The position numbers and the translations under genes were made by a program. Of a DNA stretch of 60,178 nucleotides, positions 1,268-49,536 are shown piece after piece. The first letter of the stretch is position 1, and each line of letters starts with the position of its first letter. The stretch is from Betaproteobacteria bacterium. GTDB lineage: Bacteria; Pseudomonadota; Gammaproteobacteria; Burkholderiales; Casimicrobiaceae. Below the pieces are notes generated by a model. The model did no database searches, was not told the DNA's origin, and saw nothing but the letters and a program-made list of their open reading frames with translations. The stretch covers positions 1-60,178 of the forward strand of contig JAOUIA010000017.1 in the NCBI GenBank assembly GCA_029884335.1, in the 5' to 3' direction.

Positions 1268-3898
1268 ATGACGCCGTTCGAGCCCGCCAAGATCGAGACC
1301 GCCGCGCGCGACGCGTGGGCGCGCGCCGACGCCTATCGCGCCGTCGAGAAGCCCGGCGCGCGCAAGTTCTACTGCGTCTCGATGCTGCCGTACCCGTCCG
1401 GCCGGCTGCACATGGGGCACGTGCGCAACTACACGATCAACGACGTGATGTACCGGCACCTGCGCATGCGCGGCTGGAACGTGCTGATGCCGATGGGCTG
1501 GGACGCGTTCGGCCTGCCCGCCGAGAACGCCGCGATGAAGAACGGCGTGCCGCCCGCGCAGTGGACGTACCAGAACATCGCCTCCATGAAGCAGCAGATG
1601 CAGGCGATGGGGCTCGCGATCGACTGGTCGCGCGAGGTCGCGGCCTGCGACCCGGCGTACTACAAGTGGAACCAGTGGATGTTCCTGCGCATGCTGGAGC
1701 GCGGCGTGGCCTACCGCAAGACGCAGGTCGTCAACTGGGACCCGGTCGACCGGACGGTGCTCGCCAACGAGCAGGTGATCGATGGCCGCGGCTGGCGCAC
1801 CGGCGCCGTCGTCGAGAAGCGCGAGATCCCCGGCTATTACCTGCGCATCACCGACTACGCCCAGGAACTCCTCGACCGGCTCGACGGGATGGACGGCTGG
1901 CCCGAGCGCGTGCGCACGATGCAGGCGAACTGGATTGGCCGCAGCGAGGGCGTGCGCTTCGCGTTTACGCACGACATCCGCGGCACGGATGGGGAAACGA
2001 GCGGCCGGCCGATCGGCGACGGGCGCATGTACGTGTTCACCACGCGCGCCGACACGATCATGGGCGTGACGTTCTGCGCGGTCGCCGCCGAGCACCCGCT
2101 GGCGCTCCACGCGGCGAAGTCGAACCCCGCGCTCGCCGCGTTCGTGGACGAATGCCGCCGCGGCAGCGTGATGGAGGCCGACCTCGCGACGATGGACAAG
2201 AAGGGCATGCCCACCGGCCTCTTCGTCACGCACCCGCTCACCGGCGAGCGCGTCGCCGTCTGGGTCGGCAACTACGTGCTGATGGGGTACGGCGACGGCG
2301 CGGTGATGGGGGTGCCCGCGCACGACGAGCGCGACTTCGCGTTCGCGAAGAAGTACGCGCTGCCGATCCGGCAGGCGGTCGCCGTCGAGGGCGAGGCGTT
2401 CTCGACCGACGCGTGGCAGCCGTGGTACGAGGACAAGCAGCGCTGCCGCTGCGTCAACTCCGGCAGGTACGACGGCCTCGACTACAAGTCGGCGGTGGAC
2501 GCGATCGCCGCCGACCTCGCCGCGAAGGGCCTGGGCGAGAAGAAGGTGACGTTCCGGTTGCGCGACTGGGGCGTCTCGCGGCAGCGCTACTGGGGCACGC
2601 CGATACCGATCGTCCACTGCGCGTCCTGCGGCGCCGTGCCGGTGCCGGACCGCGACCTGCCGGTCGTCCTGCCCGAGGACTGCGTGCCCGACGGCAGCGG
2701 CAACCCGCTCGCGAAACGCGAGGACTTCCTCGCCGTCGACTGCCCGCAGTGCGGCAAGCCGGCGCGGCGCGAGACCGACACGCTGGACACGTTCGTCGAC
2801 TCGTCCTGGTACTACATGCGCTACGCGTGCCCGGACGCGCCGACGATGGTCGACGCGCGCAACGACTACTGGATGCCGATGGACCAGTACATCGGCGGCA
2901 TCGAGCACGCGATCCTGCACCTGCTCTACGCGCGCTTCTGGACCAAGGTGATGCGCGACATGGGCCTCGTCAAGTTCGACGAGCCGTTCACGCGCCTGCT
3001 GACGCAGGGCATGGTGCTGAACCACGTCTGGTCGCGGCGCAACGACCGCGGCGGCATCGACTACTTCCCGCCTGCCGAGGTGACGCCGGTGATCGGCGAG
3101 GGCGGGCGCATCGCCGGGGGCAGGCTCGCCGACGGCACCACGGTCGAGTACGGCGGCGTGGCGAAGATGTCGAAGTCCGAGCGCAACGGCGTCGATCCCG
3201 AGGAGCTGATCGCGAAGTACGGCGCCGACACGGCGCGTCACTTCGTGATGTTCGCCTCGCCGCCCGACGCCACGCTCGAGTGGTCCGACGCGGGCGTCGA
3301 AGGAAGCTACCGGTTCCTGAGGCGGCTGTGGACGTTCGCGCAGGGCGCGAAGGACACGGTGGCTGCCGCCAGCGGTTTCGACCCGCGCAAGGCCGACGGC
3401 GCGGTGAAGGCCGCGCGCCGCGAGCTGCACCTGACGCTGCGGCAGGCGAACTACGACTACGAGCGCATCCAGTACAACACCGTCGTGTCGGCCGGCTACA
3501 AGCTGCTGAACGCGCTCGAGTCGCTGCCGAAGGATGCGCGCGGCGCCGCGGCGCTCACGCGCGAGGGGCTGTCGATCCTGCTGCGGGTCCTCTACCCGGT
3601 CGTGCCGCACACGGCGTGGACGCTGTGGCAGGAACTCGGCTACGGGAGCGAGCACGGCGACCTGCTCGACGCGCCGTGGCCCGAGGTCGACGAGGGCGCG
3701 CTGGTCCAGGACGCGATCGATCTCGTGCTCCAGGTCAACGGCAAGCTGCGCGGCAAGCTCGTCGTGCCCGCGACCGCCGGCAGGGACGCGATCGAGGCCG
3801 CGGCCCGCGCTGCGCCGGAGGTCGCGAAGCACGCTGCGGGCGCGCCGGTGAAGAAGGTCGTCATCGTCCCCGGCAAGCTGGTCAATGTCGTCGTCTGA
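1268..3898 (+). CDS. leuS: Leucine--tRNA ligase
   Basis: The 876-residue protein charges tRNA-Leu with leucine in the cytoplasm. It is a class I synthetase of full bacterial length. The HIGH-type motif is HMGH at residues 48-51, and the KMSKS loop is at 633-637. An editing (CP1) insertion lies between them, and a zinc-binding cysteine pair pattern (CASCGAV, then CPQCGKP) is visible around residues 455-500. The tRNA-binding anticodon domain fills the C-terminus. It overlaps lptE by 14 bases, so leuS-lptE-holA is probably one transcript, an order common in proteobacteria. Confidence 0.98.
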
Positions 3899-4454
3899 TG
3901 AACGAGGCGGTACGACACTGGGTCCCCGCATCCGCGGGGACGACAAGCTCGTCCGCCGAACGACACTCGTCCGACTGGCCGTCGGACTGTGTCTCACGGG
4001 CTCGCTCGTCGGCTGCGGCTTCCAGCTGCGAGGGCAGGCGACCTTTGCGTTCGACTCCATCCACGTCAACGCGCCCGGCCAGCCGGCGTTCGCCGTCGAG
4101 CTCAGCCGCAGCCTCGCCGCCAGCGGCGGCGCACGGGTCGCGGAGAAGGCCGAAGCCGCGCAGGTGATCGTCGACGTCGTGTCGATCGTCGACGACAAGC
4201 AGGTGCTTTCGCTGTCCCCCGGCGGCCGCGTCCAGGAGTACGTGCTCGCCAAGGCCGTCGTGTTCAGGGTGCGCGACGGCGACGGGCGCGAGTGGCTGAA
4301 GCAGGACGAGATCGTCGTGCGCCGCACCTACGGCTACGACGACACCGAGCGGCTCGCGCGCGAGATCCAGGAACAGCGCCTGCGCGCCGAGATGCAGTCC
4401 GACGCCGTGCAGCAGATCGTGCGCCGGCTGCAGCTGGCCCGGCGCCCCGCGTGA
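3885..4454 (+). CDS. lptE: LPS-assembly lipoprotein LptE
   Basis: LptE is the outer-membrane lipoprotein that plugs the LptD barrel in lipopolysaccharide export. The frame gives 189 residues. A hydrophobic stretch ends in a lipobox, GSLVGC, directly followed by GFQLRG, the hallmark of LptE/RlpB. The start is uncertain. The ATG at 3885 overlaps the end of leuS and makes an unusually long polar N-region, partly encoded by a REP-type palindrome at 3912-3945. No good ATG/GTG start lies between the palindrome and the lipobox. The gene sits in the conserved leuS-lptE-holA order, which supports the assignment. Confidence 0.88.
3912..3945. repeat. REP-type palindromic repeat inside the lptE 5' coding region
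   Basis: The core is an inverted repeat, TCCCCGC / GCGGGGA (3923-3940), flanked by cgacactggg and cgaca. The same unit recurs at 30883-31003 and 49387-49482. Here it is read in frame as part of the LptE signal-peptide N-region. Confidence 0.7.
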
Positions 4455-4476: not shown

Positions 4477-5508
4477 GTGAACGTCCGGCCGGAAGACCTC
4501 GAGGCGCGGCTCGCACAGGCGCTCGCGCCGCTGTACGTCGTGCACGGCGACGAGCCGCTGGTCGCGCTCGAGTGCGGCGACGCGGTGCGCGCGGCGGCGC
4601 GCCGCGCCGGCGTCGAGGAGCGCGAGACCTTCGTCGTCGAGCAGCACTTCAAGTGGGACGCGCTGCTCGCCGCCAACGCGAGCATGGGACTGTTCGGCAC
4701 GCGGCGGTTCGTCGACTTGCGCATCCCGTCAGGCAAGCCGGGCGTGGAAGGCGGCAAGGCGCTCGAGGCGTATGCCGCCGACCCCAATCCCGACAACGTC
4801 ACGCTGGTCACGCTGCCGCGGCTCGACAAGGCCGCGCAGGGTTCCGCGTGGTTCACCGCGCTGTGCGAGCGTGCCGTCGTGGTGGCGGTGCAGCCCGTCG
4901 AGCGCGACGCGCTGCCGCGCTGGATCGCCGGTCGCCTGGCGAGGCAGAAGCAGAAGGCCGCGCCCGAGACGCTCGCCTTCCTCGCCGACCTCTGCGAAGG
5001 CAACCTGCTCGCGGCGCGGCAGGAGATCGAGAAGCTCGCGCTGCTGCTGCCCGAGGGTGCGCTCGACCACGACGCGGTCGAGGCGGCCGTCGCCGACGTC
5101 GCGCGCTACGACGTGTTCGCGGCGTCGGAGGCGTGGCTCGCCGGCGACGCCGCGCGCGCGGCTCGCATCCTCGTTTCGCTCGCCGCCGGGGGCGACGGGC
5201 CGCAACTCGCGATCTGGGCGCTGGGCGAGGACCTGCACGCGCTCGCTGCGGTCGAGGCGATGACCCGCGAGGGCACGCCGCTCGCGAGCGCGCTGCGCAA
5301 CGCGCGCGTGTGGGGCAGGCGGCAGCACGCGATGGAGAAGGCGGCGAGGCGCCTGCGCGGCGCGGCGCTGCTGCGCGGGCTCGTCGCGCTCGCCCGCGTC
5401 GACGCGCTGTCGAAAGGCATCGGCCGCGGGGACGCGTGGGACGAAGTGCTGGCGCTCGCGCTGGCCATCGCCGGCAAGAGCGCGCACCCCGTCGCGCTGA
5501 ACGCCTGA
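4477..5508 (+). CDS. holA: DNA polymerase III subunit delta
   Basis: HolA is the clamp-loader subunit that opens the beta sliding clamp. The 343-residue length is normal. The N-terminal region begins LAPLYVVHGDEPLVALE, matching the family's opening strand and Walker-A-like degenerate site, followed by the AAA+ lid and collar domains. It starts at GTG 4477, 22 bases after the lptE stop. It is the last gene of the leuS-lptE-holA set and is convergent with rsmE. Confidence 0.95.
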   Translation: MNVRPEDLEARLAQALAPLYVVHGDEPLVALECGDAVRAAARRAGVEERETFVVEQHFKWDALLAANASMGLFGTRRFVDLRIPSGKPGVEGGKALEAYAADPNPDNVTLVTLPRLDKAAQGSAWFTALCERAVVVAVQPVERDALPRWIAGRLARQKQKAAPETLAFLADLCEGNLLAARQEIEKLALLLPEGALDHDAVEAAVADVARYDVFAASEAWLAGDAARAARILVSLAAGGDGPQLAIWALGEDLHALAAVEAMTREGTPLASALRNARVWGRRQHAMEKAARRLRGAALLRGLVALARVDALSKGIGRGDAWDEVLALALAIAGKSAHPVALNA

Positions 5509-5525
5509 GCAATTGGCAGCGCAAT

Positions 5526-5702
5526 GCAGTACGACAACGTGAGCGCCAACGCACGCACGGTGGGCGTTGTTTCATGCCGCTGCCGGCGAGCGCCCGACGG
5601 GCCGCCCCGAGGGCGCTCGCGTGATTCCTGGCTCGATGCAAAAGGCGCTACGTCGACCTCACGGCATCCACTGCGCCCCCGAACGCCTTTTGCATCGATC
5701 TC
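5526..5702 (-). ncRNA. Copy A of a three-stem structured intergenic element (unknown family)
   Basis: This 177-base stretch begins right after the rsmE stop when read on the minus strand. It has a second copy at 24140-24328. Stem I is a perfect 14-bp pairing (5634-5647 with 5684-5697, CGATGCAAAAGGCG) enclosing 36 bases. Stem II is a perfect 10-bp pairing (5586-5595 with 5611-5620) with a 15-base loop containing GGGCCGCCCC. Stem III pairs ACAACG (5533-5538) with CGTTGT (5566-5571). TGATTCC between stems I and II is conserved. It may be a 3' UTR structure, a processed RNA, a bidirectional terminator between convergent holA and rsmE, or a dispersed repeat. No U-tract follows any stem. The ncRNA type is a working label. 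Confidence 0.45.
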
Positions 5703-6449
5703 CTAGCGCGCGTCGCCGGCGACGGCGGCGAGCGTGGCGAGCGCGGCGACCGCTGCCGTGTCGGCGCGCAGCACCCGCGCGCCGAGGTGCACGGGCACGA
5801 AGCCGCGTGCCACGGCGAGCGTCACCTCGGCCTCCGTGAAGCCGCCCTCGGGGCCCACCAGCACGGTGCGCGGCGGCGTGCGCGAAGCGAACCCCGCCAG
5901 CGACACGGTCGCGCCGGGCCCGGCGATCGCGCCCGGCAGGTTGGCGGGTCCGATGCCGCGCAGCCAGTCGTCGAGCGCCACCGGCTCGGCGATCGGCGGC
6001 ACGCGATTGCGCCCGCACTGCTCGCACGCCGCGATCGCAATGGAGCGCCAATGCTGCAGCCGCTTCGTCCCGCGCGCCCCGCGCATCGCGCCCTGGCTGC
6101 GCGCGGCGACGACCGGGACGATCGATGCGGCGCCGAGTTCGACCGCCTTGCGCACGGCCGCGTCCATCGGGTCGGTCGCGATGACCGCCAGCGCCAGGAC
6201 CGGCGCGCCGGCCCACTCGCGATCGACCGGATCGAAGCGGTCGACTCGCGCGCCCACGCCGTGGCGGTCGATGCGGTCGATCGCCGCGCGGTACTCGCCG
6301 CCGCGACCGTCGAAGAGGCGTATCGGCGCGCCGAGCGGCAGGCGCAACACGCGCACGGCGTGGTGCGCGACGTCGCCGGGCAGCGCGAGCGAGGTGCCGA
6401 CGCACGCCTGCCCGAGCGGGAAGTCTATGTAGAACCGGGGGTTGGGCAC
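5703..6449 (-). CDS. rsmE: 16S rRNA (uracil(1498)-N(3))-methyltransferase
   Basis: RsmE methylates U1498 of 16S rRNA using S-adenosylmethionine. It is a SPOUT-fold enzyme. The 248-residue protein from the GTG at 6449 starts PNPRFYIDFPL, close to the family's usual beginning, while the open frame upstream has no family sequence. The C-terminal knot carries VLVGPEGGFTEAE and LGARVLRADTAA, the SAM-binding signatures of RsmE. It is divergent from the luxR-type gene across a 299-base gap and convergent with holA. Confidence 0.95.
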   Translation of the reverse strand: MPNPRFYIDFPLGQACVGTSLALPGDVAHHAVRVLRLPLGAPIRLFDGRGGEYRAAIDRIDRHGVGARVDRFDPVDREWAGAPVLALAVIATDPMDAAVRKAVELGAASIVPVVAARSQGAMRGARGTKRLQHWRSIAIAACEQCGRNRVPPIAEPVALDDWLRGIGPANLPGAIAGPGATVSLAGFASRTPPRTVLVGPEGGFTEAEVTLAVARGFVPVHLGARVLRADTAAVAALATLAAVAGDAR

Positions 6450-24117: not shown

Positions 24118-24139
24118 TCGCGAGCCGCGTGTTTCTTCA

Positions 24140-24328
24140 GCAGTCCGACGCAACACGCCACCAACAGGCAGCGTACGGCGCATGACGCCCGTCGTTGCGT
24201 GCCCTTGCCGGCGGACGCCGCAGGGCCGCCCCAAGGCGTCCGCCCTGATTCCCTCCCGATGCAAAAGGCGCAACGACAACGCCGCGAGTCACCGTCGAGC
24301 GTACGAGCGCCTCTTGCATCGGAGCGCT
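24140..24328 (-). ncRNA. Copy B of the three-stem structured intergenic element (unknown family)
   Basis: This 189-base stretch lies between the arabinonate-dehydratase-like stop and the DapA-family start, reading on the minus strand. Stem I pairs 24256-24271 with 24307-24322 (16 bp). Its one imperfect position is G-U in minus-strand RNA but A-C in plus-strand RNA. Stem II pairs 24211-24219 with 24235-24243 and differs from copy A by two compensated pairs, with the same 15-base loop length and GGGCCGCCCC core. Stem III pairs ACGCAAC (24148-24154) with GTTGCGT (24194-24200). GCAGTCCGAC at its end matches GCAGTACGAC in copy A. Function unknown; a repeat family is the main alternative. Confidence 0.45.
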
Positions 24329-26068
24329 CTAGTGGCTCGGCCGGCCGATCTTCGCTCCGGACTTGCCGACCAGGAAGTCGAGGTCCACGCCCTGGTCGGC
24401 CTGGTTCACCGTGTCGCAGAACAGCTTGACCCAGCCGCGGTCGGCGTGCGGCGGGGGCGCCTTCCACTCCGCCTTGCGCCGCGCGAGCTCGCCCGCGCTC
24501 ACGTGCAGGTGCAGCTTGCGCCGCTCGACGTCGAGCTCGATCACGTCGCCGTTGCGCACCAGCGCGAGCGGGCCGCCGGCCGCCGCCTCGGGCGCCGTGT
24601 GCAGCACGACCGTGCCGTAGGCGGTGCCCGACATGCGTGCGTCGGAGATGCGCACCATGTCGGTCACGCCCTTCTTCAGCAGCTTGGCGGGCAGCGCGAA
24701 GTTGCCCACCTCGGGGAAGCCCGGGTAGCCCTTCGGGCCGCAGTTCTTGAGCACCAGCACGTCGTCGGCCTTGACGTCGAGCTTCGGGTCGTCGATGCGC
24801 CTGTGCAGGTCGTCGATGTCCTCGAACACGACCGCGCGGCCCTTGTGCTTCATCAGCTTCGGCGTGGCTGCCGAGGGCTTCAGCACCGCGCCCTGCGGGG
24901 CGAGGTTGCCGCGCAGCACGGCGATGCCGCCGAGCGGCTTGAACGGCTTCGCCAGCGGCGTGATGACGTTCGGGCCGTAGTTGACCGCGTCCTTGCAGTT
25001 CTCCCAGATCGTCCGGCCGTTCACCGTCAGCGCCTTCTTGTGCAGGAAGCGGCCGATCTCGCGAATCACGACCGGGAGGCCGCCGGCGTAGTAGAAGTCC
25101 TCCATCAGGAACTCGCCGGAGGGCATCAGGTTGACGAGGCAGGGCATCTCGCGGCCGAGGCGGTCCCAGTCGGCGAGCGTCATGTCCACGCCGACGCGGC
25201 GCGCGATCGCGATCAGGTGGACGACGGCGTTCGTCGAACCGCCGATCGCGCCGTTGACCATGATCGCGTTCTCGAACGCCTGCCGCGTCAGGATCCTCGA
25301 CATGCGCAGGTCCTCGTGCACCATCTCGACGATGCGCCGGCCGACCATGCGGGCGAGCACCTTGCGCCGCGAGTCGACCGCGGGGATCGCGGCGTTCGTC
25401 GGCAGGCCCATGCCGAGCGATTCCACCATCGACGCCATCGTCGAGGCCGTGCCCATCGTCATGCAGTGGCCCGCCGAGCGCGCCATGCAGGCCTCGACCT
25501 CCGGCATGTCGTCGAGCGTCATCGTGCCGACCTTGAGCGCCTCGGTGAATTTCCAGAGGTGCGTGCCCGACCCTACCGTCTCGCCCCGGTAGCGGCCGTT
25601 CAGCATCGGCCCGCCGGAGAGCCCGATCGTCGGCAGGTCGCAGGACGCCGCGCCCATCAGCAGCGCCGGCGTGGTCTTGTCGCAGCCCATCATCAGCACG
25701 ACGCCGTCGAACGGGTTGGCGCGGATCGACTCCTCGACGTCCATCGCGACCTGGTTGCGGAACAGCATGGTGGTCGGCCGCATCACCGGCTCGCCGAGGC
25801 TCATCACCGGGAACTCGAGCGGGAAGCCGCCGGCGTCGAGCACGCCGTACTTCACGTGCTCGGCGAGCTCGCGGAAGTGCGCGTTGCACGGCGTGACCTC
25901 CGACCAGGTGTTGCAGATGCCGATCACCGGACGGCCGATGAACTGGTCGTGCGGGAAGCCCTGGTTCTTCATCCACGAGCGGTGGACCATCGCGTCGCGG
26001 TCGTGGCTGCCGAACCAGCCGGCGGAGCGCAGCTGCTTCGACTTCTTCGGGGGCTTGTGCTTGCTCAT
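24329..26068 (-). CDS. IlvD/EDD family sugar-acid dehydratase, L-arabinonate dehydratase-like
   Basis: The 579-residue length equals that of the characterised Rhizobium L-arabinonate dehydratase. The iron-sulfur ligands C61, C129 (MMGCDKTTPA) and C202 (AGHCMTMGTAST) have the same spacing as C59, C127 and C200 of that enzyme. D130 and K131 fit the magnesium site, and SGTAYG near the C-terminus holds the catalytic serine. It would dehydrate a pentonate or related aldonate to the 2-keto-3-deoxy acid. It lies between the UxaA-like and DapA-family genes in the same operon. The exact sugar acid is inferred. Confidence 0.9.
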   Translation of the reverse strand: MSKHKPPKKSKQLRSAGWFGSHDRDAMVHRSWMKNQGFPHDQFIGRPVIGICNTWSEVTPCNAHFRELAEHVKYGVLDAGGFPLEFPVMSLGEPVMRPTTMLFRNQVAMDVEESIRANPFDGVVLMMGCDKTTPALLMGAASCDLPTIGLSGGPMLNGRYRGETVGSGTHLWKFTEALKVGTMTLDDMPEVEACMARSAGHCMTMGTASTMASMVESLGMGLPTNAAIPAVDSRRKVLARMVGRRIVEMVHEDLRMSRILTRQAFENAIMVNGAIGGSTNAVVHLIAIARRVGVDMTLADWDRLGREMPCLVNLMPSGEFLMEDFYYAGGLPVVIREIGRFLHKKALTVNGRTIWENCKDAVNYGPNVITPLAKPFKPLGGIAVLRGNLAPQGAVLKPSAATPKLMKHKGRAVVFEDIDDLHRRIDDPKLDVKADDVLVLKNCGPKGYPGFPEVGNFALPAKLLKKGVTDMVRISDARMSGTAYGTVVLHTAPEAAAGGPLALVRNGDVIELDVERRKLHLHVSAGELARRKAEWKAPPPHADRGWVKLFCDTVNQADQGVDLDFLVGKSGAKIGRPSH

Positions 26069-30882: not shown

Positions 30883-31003
30883 CGTCGTCGTCCCCGCGCA
30901 GGCGGGCGTCCTTACCGTCGTCGTTGCCGCGAAAGCGGGAACCCAGTGTCGTCGGGCGGCGCATGCGGAAGACGCTGGATCCCCGCCTGCGCGGGGATGA
31001 CCG
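30883..31003. repeat. Cluster of three REP-type palindromes
   Basis: Units at about 30883-30912, 30916-30956 and 30970-31003 share GTCCCCGC...GCGGGGA(C/T) cores with variations (GTTGCCGC...GCGGGAAC in the middle one). The third is in opposite orientation to the first two. They fill the 202-base gap between the dctP stop and the dctQ start. Confidence 0.65.
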
Positions 31004-37619: not shown

Positions 37620-37770
37620 CCCTCACCCCCGACCCCTCTCCCGGCTGACGCCGGGCGAGGGGAGTTGGCGCCCCTCACCCCCGGCCCCTCTCCCAGCTGA
37701 CGCCGGGCGAGGGGAGATGCGAGATTCCCTCTCCCCCGGCGACGGGGGAGAGGGTGAGGGTGAGGGGGGC
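37620..37770. repeat. Two tandem and one inverted CCCTCACCCC-type repeat units
   Basis: Units at 37620-37664 and 37671-37717 are nearly identical (CCCTCACCCCCG, CCCCTCTCCC, then GCTGACGCCGGGCGAGGGGAG). A third, 37727-37770, is in the opposite orientation. They fill most of the gap between the FAH gene and the convergent XylX-like gene. Related units stand at 14751-14863. Confidence 0.7.
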
Positions 37771-49331: not shown

Positions 49332-49536
49332 CTGTCATCTGTCAAGACGTTGTTGCTGCAAAGCATGCGCTGCTCCCAACCATGAGTCGTCGTCCCCGCG
49401 AAGGCGGGGACCCAGTGTCTTTCGTGCCAGCCAGCTTGTCGAATCGACGAGACGCTGGGTCCCCGCCTTCGCGGGGACGACGCATGAACTGAATTCATGG
49501 ACGGGCGAAACAACGTATTGAAGCTTCACAGCTAGC
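49327..49536. repeat. REPIN-like 210-bp inverted repeat between convergent genes
   Basis: Two arms of about 95-105 bases face each other. From outside inwards they share GCTAGCTGT, an 8-base variable spacer, AA(G/T)ACGTTGTT, a variable spacer of 24-29 bases, and CATG(A/C)GTCGTCCCCGCG with the rest of a 34-base REP unit (49387-49420 and 49450-49482). The TAG stops of the MFS gene (49329-49331) and the DLH gene (49532-49534) lie inside the outermost 9-bp arms. It could act as a bidirectional terminator or be a mobile REP pair. Confidence 0.75.

Follow-up and report, generated by a model that had tools for sequence, protein, structure and literature searches.

Two stretches of a 60,178-nucleotide window of betaproteobacterial DNA share three potential stems in the same order, and each lies directly after the stop codon of a minus-strand gene. 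The question raised by this locus was whether these stretches act on the genes that they follow or arrived there as copies of something mobile. The original prediction took them for a two-copy element under selection as folded minus-strand RNA (an RNA derived from a 3' untranslated region, an attenuator, or another regulatory element), with a dispersed mobile repeat as the main alternative. The data described below favor the alternative. The stretches are very probably members of a new family of non-autonomous miniature inverted-repeat transposable elements (MITEs), spread by MITE-like transposition at CTAG-like sites, while the length of the target duplication, proposed to be 4 bp, is less sure than the mode of transposition.

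The repeat unit and its copies

Both stretches are minus-strand copies of one non-coding unit of about 186-188 bp, which has imperfect terminal inverted repeats and CTAG-like tetranucleotide flanks, and its layout can be seen directly in the sequence. An alignment of the two with further copies shows that a CTAG-like flank is followed by CAGNNNGATGCAARAGGCG and, after some 35 bases of variable sequence, by CGCCTYTTGCATC. Beyond a spacer come stem II, whose loop is GGGGCGGCCC, and a short third hairpin, whose loop is of the AACAACG type; the right end TGCATCATGCTG and a second CTAG-like flank complete the order. Stem I arises from pairing of the left end with a second, inverted occurrence of its motif inside the unit, and in the window copies it consists of GATGCAARAGGCG and CGCCTTTTGCATC around a loop of 36-37 bases. 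Since the left end also recurs inverted at the right end, with CAGNNNGATGCA present imperfectly at both, the unit possesses the terminal inverted repeats expected of a MITE. Read on the plus strand, both window copies carry TGATTCC between stems I and II, GGGCCGCCCC within the 15-base loop of stem II, and GCAGT(A/C)CGAC at the far end.

Copy A (186 bp, minus strand, positions 5517-5702) lies between the stop codon of rsmE, a gene with a Methyltrans_RNA domain whose minus-strand TAG at 5703 adjoins the copy, and the stop codon (5506-5508) of a convergent plus-strand DNA polymerase III delta-like gene (4477-5508). Its left flank, at the stem I end, is CTAG (5703-5706) and contains the rsmE stop; its right flank is CCAA on the minus strand (5513-5516). 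Stem I and its loop occupy 5635-5696, and stem II, with the conserved loop, 5586-5620. Copy B (188 bp, minus strand, 24141-24328) lies between the minus-strand TAG stop of an IlvD/EDD dehydratase gene, which adjoins it at 24329, and a downstream gene of the DHDPS family on the same strand. Here the left flank CTAG (24329-24332) contains the dehydratase stop, the right flank is CTGA on the minus strand (24137-24140), stem I and its loop lie at 24258-24320, and stem II, with the same loop, lies at 24210-24244.

The two look-alike copies, the layout of their stems, and their abutment on minus-strand TAG stops are therefore as originally described, and both sites are real, although copy A extends to about 5517 and not only to 5526. 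The single flaw in stem I of copy B is indeed a G-U pair on the minus strand. The arms of stem II, which read GCGAGCGCCC/GGGCGCTCGC for copy A and GGCGGACGCC/GGCGTCCGCC for copy B, differ by two swapped and compensated pairs. The compensation itself is genuine, but the difference is common to the other copies of each subfamily and so does not represent two sites changing independently.

The description as a two-copy element did not hold, as there are about 50 copies in the genome of the window (G000). A strict stem I pattern found 7 places in G000, or 13 when A or G was permitted at one position, and a BLAST search of G000 with copy A returned at least 45 matches at E≤1 and at least 40 at E≤1.3e-9. 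The wider search suggested by the original prediction was performed with a covariance model derived from an alignment of 26 copies. Among 22 genomes of the same genus, this model gave 55 matches in G000, 66 in G008, 7 in G015, 6 in G001, and 1 each in G009 and G003, a few of these being antisense overlaps, and no match in the other 16. In the GTDB species collection, the strict stem I pattern was found in 39 stretches, all within four assemblies (34 in SJ348, 2 in SJ17, 1 in SJ575, and 2 in BroJett026), which share contig numbers and positions with G008, G001, G009, and G015.

The length of the unit is nearly fixed. In the DNA examined, terminal repeats that face each other at a distance of 30-4000 bases bound 55 distinct spans. 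Of these, 40 measured 190-199 bp, a length that includes three flank bases on either side, and in G008 both ends were retained in five shortened derivatives of 45-125 bp. The repeat is thus short, non-coding, multi-copy, and of near-fixed length, as MITEs are. In a tree of 87 copies, in which 14 of 84 inner branches were well supported, the copies of G000 and G008 fell mostly into separate groups, and copies A and B were placed in different subfamilies. Copies are dispersed, their distribution across genomes is patchy, and amplification occurred separately within lineages.

Target sites and gene ends

The placement of the repeat was studied in 94 of the 121 model matches in G000 and G008. The 27 left out comprised 5 from G000 (weak, truncated, or antisense overlaps) and 22 from G008 (some of them weak). 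Both ends were recognized in 64 of the 94 copies, and the 30 without a recognizable right end are absent from the flank counts. Among the 64, the flanking 4-mer was CTAG on the left in 26 and on the right in 18, and TTAG, CTAA, GTAG, CCAG, CTGG, and CCGG were among the others. Identical flanks such as CTAT/CTAT and CCAA/CCAA also occurred. In G008, identical flanks were found in 8 of 38 copies versus 3.9 in shuffles (p 0.017), and identical 4-mers other than CTAG in 5 of 38 versus 1.0 expected (p 0.0012). G000 showed no such excess (5 of 26 versus 4.7 expected, none outside CTAG), for which decay of the flank away from the stop codon is a plausible reason. The left ends are ragged, which counts against the MITE reading: a TAG was present within 20 bases before stem I in 65 copies, at the standard distance in 46 and elsewhere in 19. 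Compared with the IS5 target list contained in the consulted portion of PMC5493358, the flank spectrum corresponds to an IS5-type YTAR target that is mostly CTAG.

A second repeat, starting TGTCCCGYACCGG, adjoins the right end of three copies (L010, L008, and L029; e.g., G000:C45 near 20450). It follows CTAG elsewhere in L010 and may share the target.

The flanks also bear on the closest alternative, an IS630/Tc1-like MITE that duplicates only the TA inside CTAG. This differs from the preferred MITE reading only in the enzyme and the duplication length, so that the odds of the two overlap, and taken by itself it is considered unlikely. A preference of IS630 for TA in CTAG is indicated by a title in the reference list of PMC2170065, and the outer flank base in G008, which is C on the left in 20 of 38 copies and on the right in 30 of 38, is more variable on the left, as would follow from the right C being part of the element. 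The identical 4-mers CTAT/CTAT and CCAA/CCAA and the excess of such flanks in G008 count against this alternative, and only one DDE_3 gene exceeded the cut-off in six genomes, without matching ends.

The position of the copies at stop codons can be related to the scarcity of the target. The window DNA has 72% G+C and contains 17 CTAG tetranucleotides versus about 152 expected from base composition. Ten of the 17 were the stops of coding-looking frames, two of these being at the repeat copies; coding calls were made by a rule on G+C by codon position and not from gene annotation. A coding-looking stop adjoined 70 of the 94 copies, in both orientations (left end 40, right end 22, both 8, and neither 24). 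Homologues in either orientation relative to genes, which the original prediction had named as evidence against its RNA reading, are therefore what was found at adjacent stop codons. Background CTAGs in the DNA examined lay at coding-looking stops in 16 of 41 cases in G000, 4 of 24 in G008, and 8 of 15 in the window, counted by rules slightly different from those used for the copies. As these fractions are lower than 70 of 94, the enrichment at stops exceeds what the supply of CTAG alone provides. Such an excess would be produced by the loss of insertions within genes and likewise by a preference for gene ends.

The orthologous sites were found to be largely empty. At the end of ilvD, the stop codon was TGA in 16 of 19 relatives, TAA in 1, and TAG in 2, and no repeat was present in 18 of the 19. 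In G008, where the stop is TAG (L225, G008:C37), a repeat remnant was recognized by eye that was not reported by the covariance model. It is oriented opposite to copy B, and the ilvD site was therefore probably hit twice independently. The ilvD stop of G001 is also TAG, with no repeat there. A point against the MITE reading is that the flanks of copy B are unequal, CTAG on the left and CTGA on the right, the latter being what 16 of the 19 relatives have at that stop. For rsmE, the initial bases downstream of the gene showed no repeat in any of the 11 relatives read, and in the closest of them (G015) the gene ends in TGA and the site is empty. The covariance model found no significant copy in 30 ilvD and rsmE loci (best E 0.04).

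From these data the following mechanism is proposed. A transposase supplied in trans would act on the terminal repeats and insert the unit at YTAR sites, most often CTAG, with a 4-bp duplication of the kind made by IS5-type enzymes. Since CTAG is scarce and frequently supplies a TAG stop, insertion into CTAG would explain the copies at gene ends. Insertions within genes would be lost, so that the surviving copies would lie at gene ends, with TAG retained at the junction. The internal hairpins, including the one with the nearly invariant loop, would be kept in the lineages that found new copies, probably because the mobilizing machinery needs them.

Conserved hairpins and the search for a mobilizing system

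The folds of copies A and B scored better than those of shuffled sequences (z -3.3 and -2.9, respectively), and for either copy a single one of 200 shuffles scored as well. Covariation was assessed in 24 divergent copies chosen to span the lineages (7 from G000, 7 from G008, 4 each from G001 and G015, and 1 each from G009 and G003; a further G001 copy, L081, was dropped). The three stems were 92% paired in this set (98% for stem I, 92% for stem II, and 77% for stem III), and changes on both sides were found at 11 of 29 pairs. These amounted to 30 cells versus 7.7 in shuffles, which ignore relatedness, and at most 7 in slid controls. Counts of this kind are inflated by relatedness, but individual pairs had changed in different ways in separate lineages. 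The loop of stem II was exactly GGGGCGGCCC in 74 of the 81 copies where it could be anchored. The predicted conservation of a folded structure was thereby confirmed for stems I and II, and the covariation in this wider alignment was strong.

It is possible that the hairpins are part of how the element moves, and that folded DNA or RNA hairpins are recognized by a mobilizing system that also favors gene ends, delivering copies to stops beyond the supply of CTAG. This structure-dependent mode is regarded as a minor possibility.

No autonomous partner was found by the DDE_5, DDE_3, DDE_Tnp_1, and Y1 searches or by paired ends in the DNA examined. IS701 elements target YTAG, a pairing for which no report turned up in a literature search; an IS701-type mover was rejected, as DDE_5 genes were absent from all 22 genomes. 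No DDE_3 or DDE_Tnp_1 gene was present in G000. The one DDE_3 gene above the cut-off was in G008, with terminal-repeat matches nearby only at chance level, and the same was true of end matches near the three DDE_Tnp_1 loci of G008. At one DDE_Tnp_1 locus (L215), facing three-mismatch end matches were 1.8 kb apart, but one of them was inside the gene, and chance alone is expected to give matches of this kind. Both IS630 and IS4/IS5 genes were rejected as movers, being few and without matching ends. Searches of plasmids with copy B and of phages with copy A gave patches only, covering at most 21% of the query, viral contigs contained no exact match to the 22-base left-end pattern, and no description of the repeat was recognized in literature searches.

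A Y1 (HUH) enzyme that moves the repeat in the form of single-stranded DNA, as for REP/RAYT or IS200/IS605 non-autonomous elements, is very unlikely. Hairpins with a conserved loop and few wobble pairs would suit folded DNA, and a Y1_Tnp gene was present in all four genomes with several copies. However, such genes were also present in 6 of 13 searched genomes free of copies and in neither of the two single-copy genomes. Across 14 Y1 loci, each at most 3.3 kb long, no convincing copy was found (best model E 0.04), with single two-mismatch end matches in 4 of the 14, and Y1/RAYT genes were rejected as movers because no link between them and the copies was seen. The terminal inverted repeats and the 4-bp flank excess in G008 also count against such movement, as Y1 elements are not known to make such a duplication.

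REP-like repeats of the GTCCCCGCGAAGGCGGGGAC type were observed in the window at 49388-49482, 3914-3944, and 30971-31001, one of them an inverted pair, and a near-identical 48-bp pair beginning CCCTCACCCCCGACCCCTCTCCC, 52 bases apart and 94% alike, occupies 37620-37719.

The strand preference expected of an RNA was sought in stem I. Across 90 copies, the minus strand showed 24 G-U cells versus 37 A-C cells, and the two arms agreed better within copies than between copies, which gives no support to selection on that RNA strand after insertion; the pattern fits stems that are maintained as DNA or in the source copies. No Rfam family reached its gathering score within the window, and two loci searched permissively yielded only three weak matches, all below gathering scores. 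A structured minus-strand RNA (from a 3' untranslated region, an attenuator, or a stabilizer) kept for regulating the preceding gene is therefore highly improbable, since the covarying stems I and II with folds that beat shuffles, the more frequent stop-side position of the left end (40 versus 22, p 0.03), and the placement of copy B between two co-directional genes are outweighed by the near-equal orientations of the 64 copies with both ends (24 left, 18 right, 6 both, and 16 neither), the lack of a G-U excess on the sense strand, the unrelated genes that the window copies follow, the orthologous sites without the repeat, and the lack of a convincing Rfam match in those searches.

An apparent regulatory RNA thus becomes a mobile repeat, and its position at stop codons is explained by a likely target that is rare and often is the stop itself. 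If movement proves to depend on the hairpins, the element would have a structural need that MITEs do not usually show. In this Burkholderiales genus, represented here by metagenome assemblies, the copies mark the ends of genes and could affect read-through or mRNA decay. A lone right-end repeat was also present in G008 (L193, about 3001-3100; G008:C214) at the start of a gene that by eye resembles one for a glycyl-tRNA synthetase beta subunit, and its own ATG may serve as the start codon of that gene.

Comparison with known systems

The target of the MITE-like element resembles that of IS5 of Escherichia coli. In the consulted parts of the sources, IS5 is described as duplicating YTAR (PMC5493358, PMC10359306), and its 24 listed targets include CTAG 15 times, CTAA and TTAG 3 times each, and CAAG once (PMC5493358). 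IS5 differs in being autonomous and encoding its transposase, and no related gene with the ends of the repeat was found here. Only the targeting is IS5-like, and as no matching transposase was found among the three DDE families and Y1 searched, the repeat is not assigned to an IS5-derived family.

RUP, Correia/NEMIS, CIR, and YPAL, as far as they are treated in the consulted part of PMC2229807, are likewise small, dispersed, and often intergenic, and several can fold as RNA. Most of the units in that account are A+T-rich with TA ends (YPAL is neither), whereas the present repeat is G+C-rich and flanked by CTAG, and its internal hairpins are separate, with a fixed loop in one of them.

MITEPsy1 of Pseudomonas syringae, according to the portion of PMC3189936 consulted, is also short, non-coding, present in several copies, and bounded by terminal inverted repeats. 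Its insertion sites are CTAG or YTAA, where 4 nucleotides are duplicated. It differs in its length of 100 nucleotides and in its presumed origin from an IS5-family element resident in the genome; internal covarying hairpins are not mentioned in that portion, and its ends show by eye at most a partial resemblance (GGTC...AAAA) to those of the repeat. Among the systems covered by these sources, MITEPsy1 is the nearest described relative in behavior.
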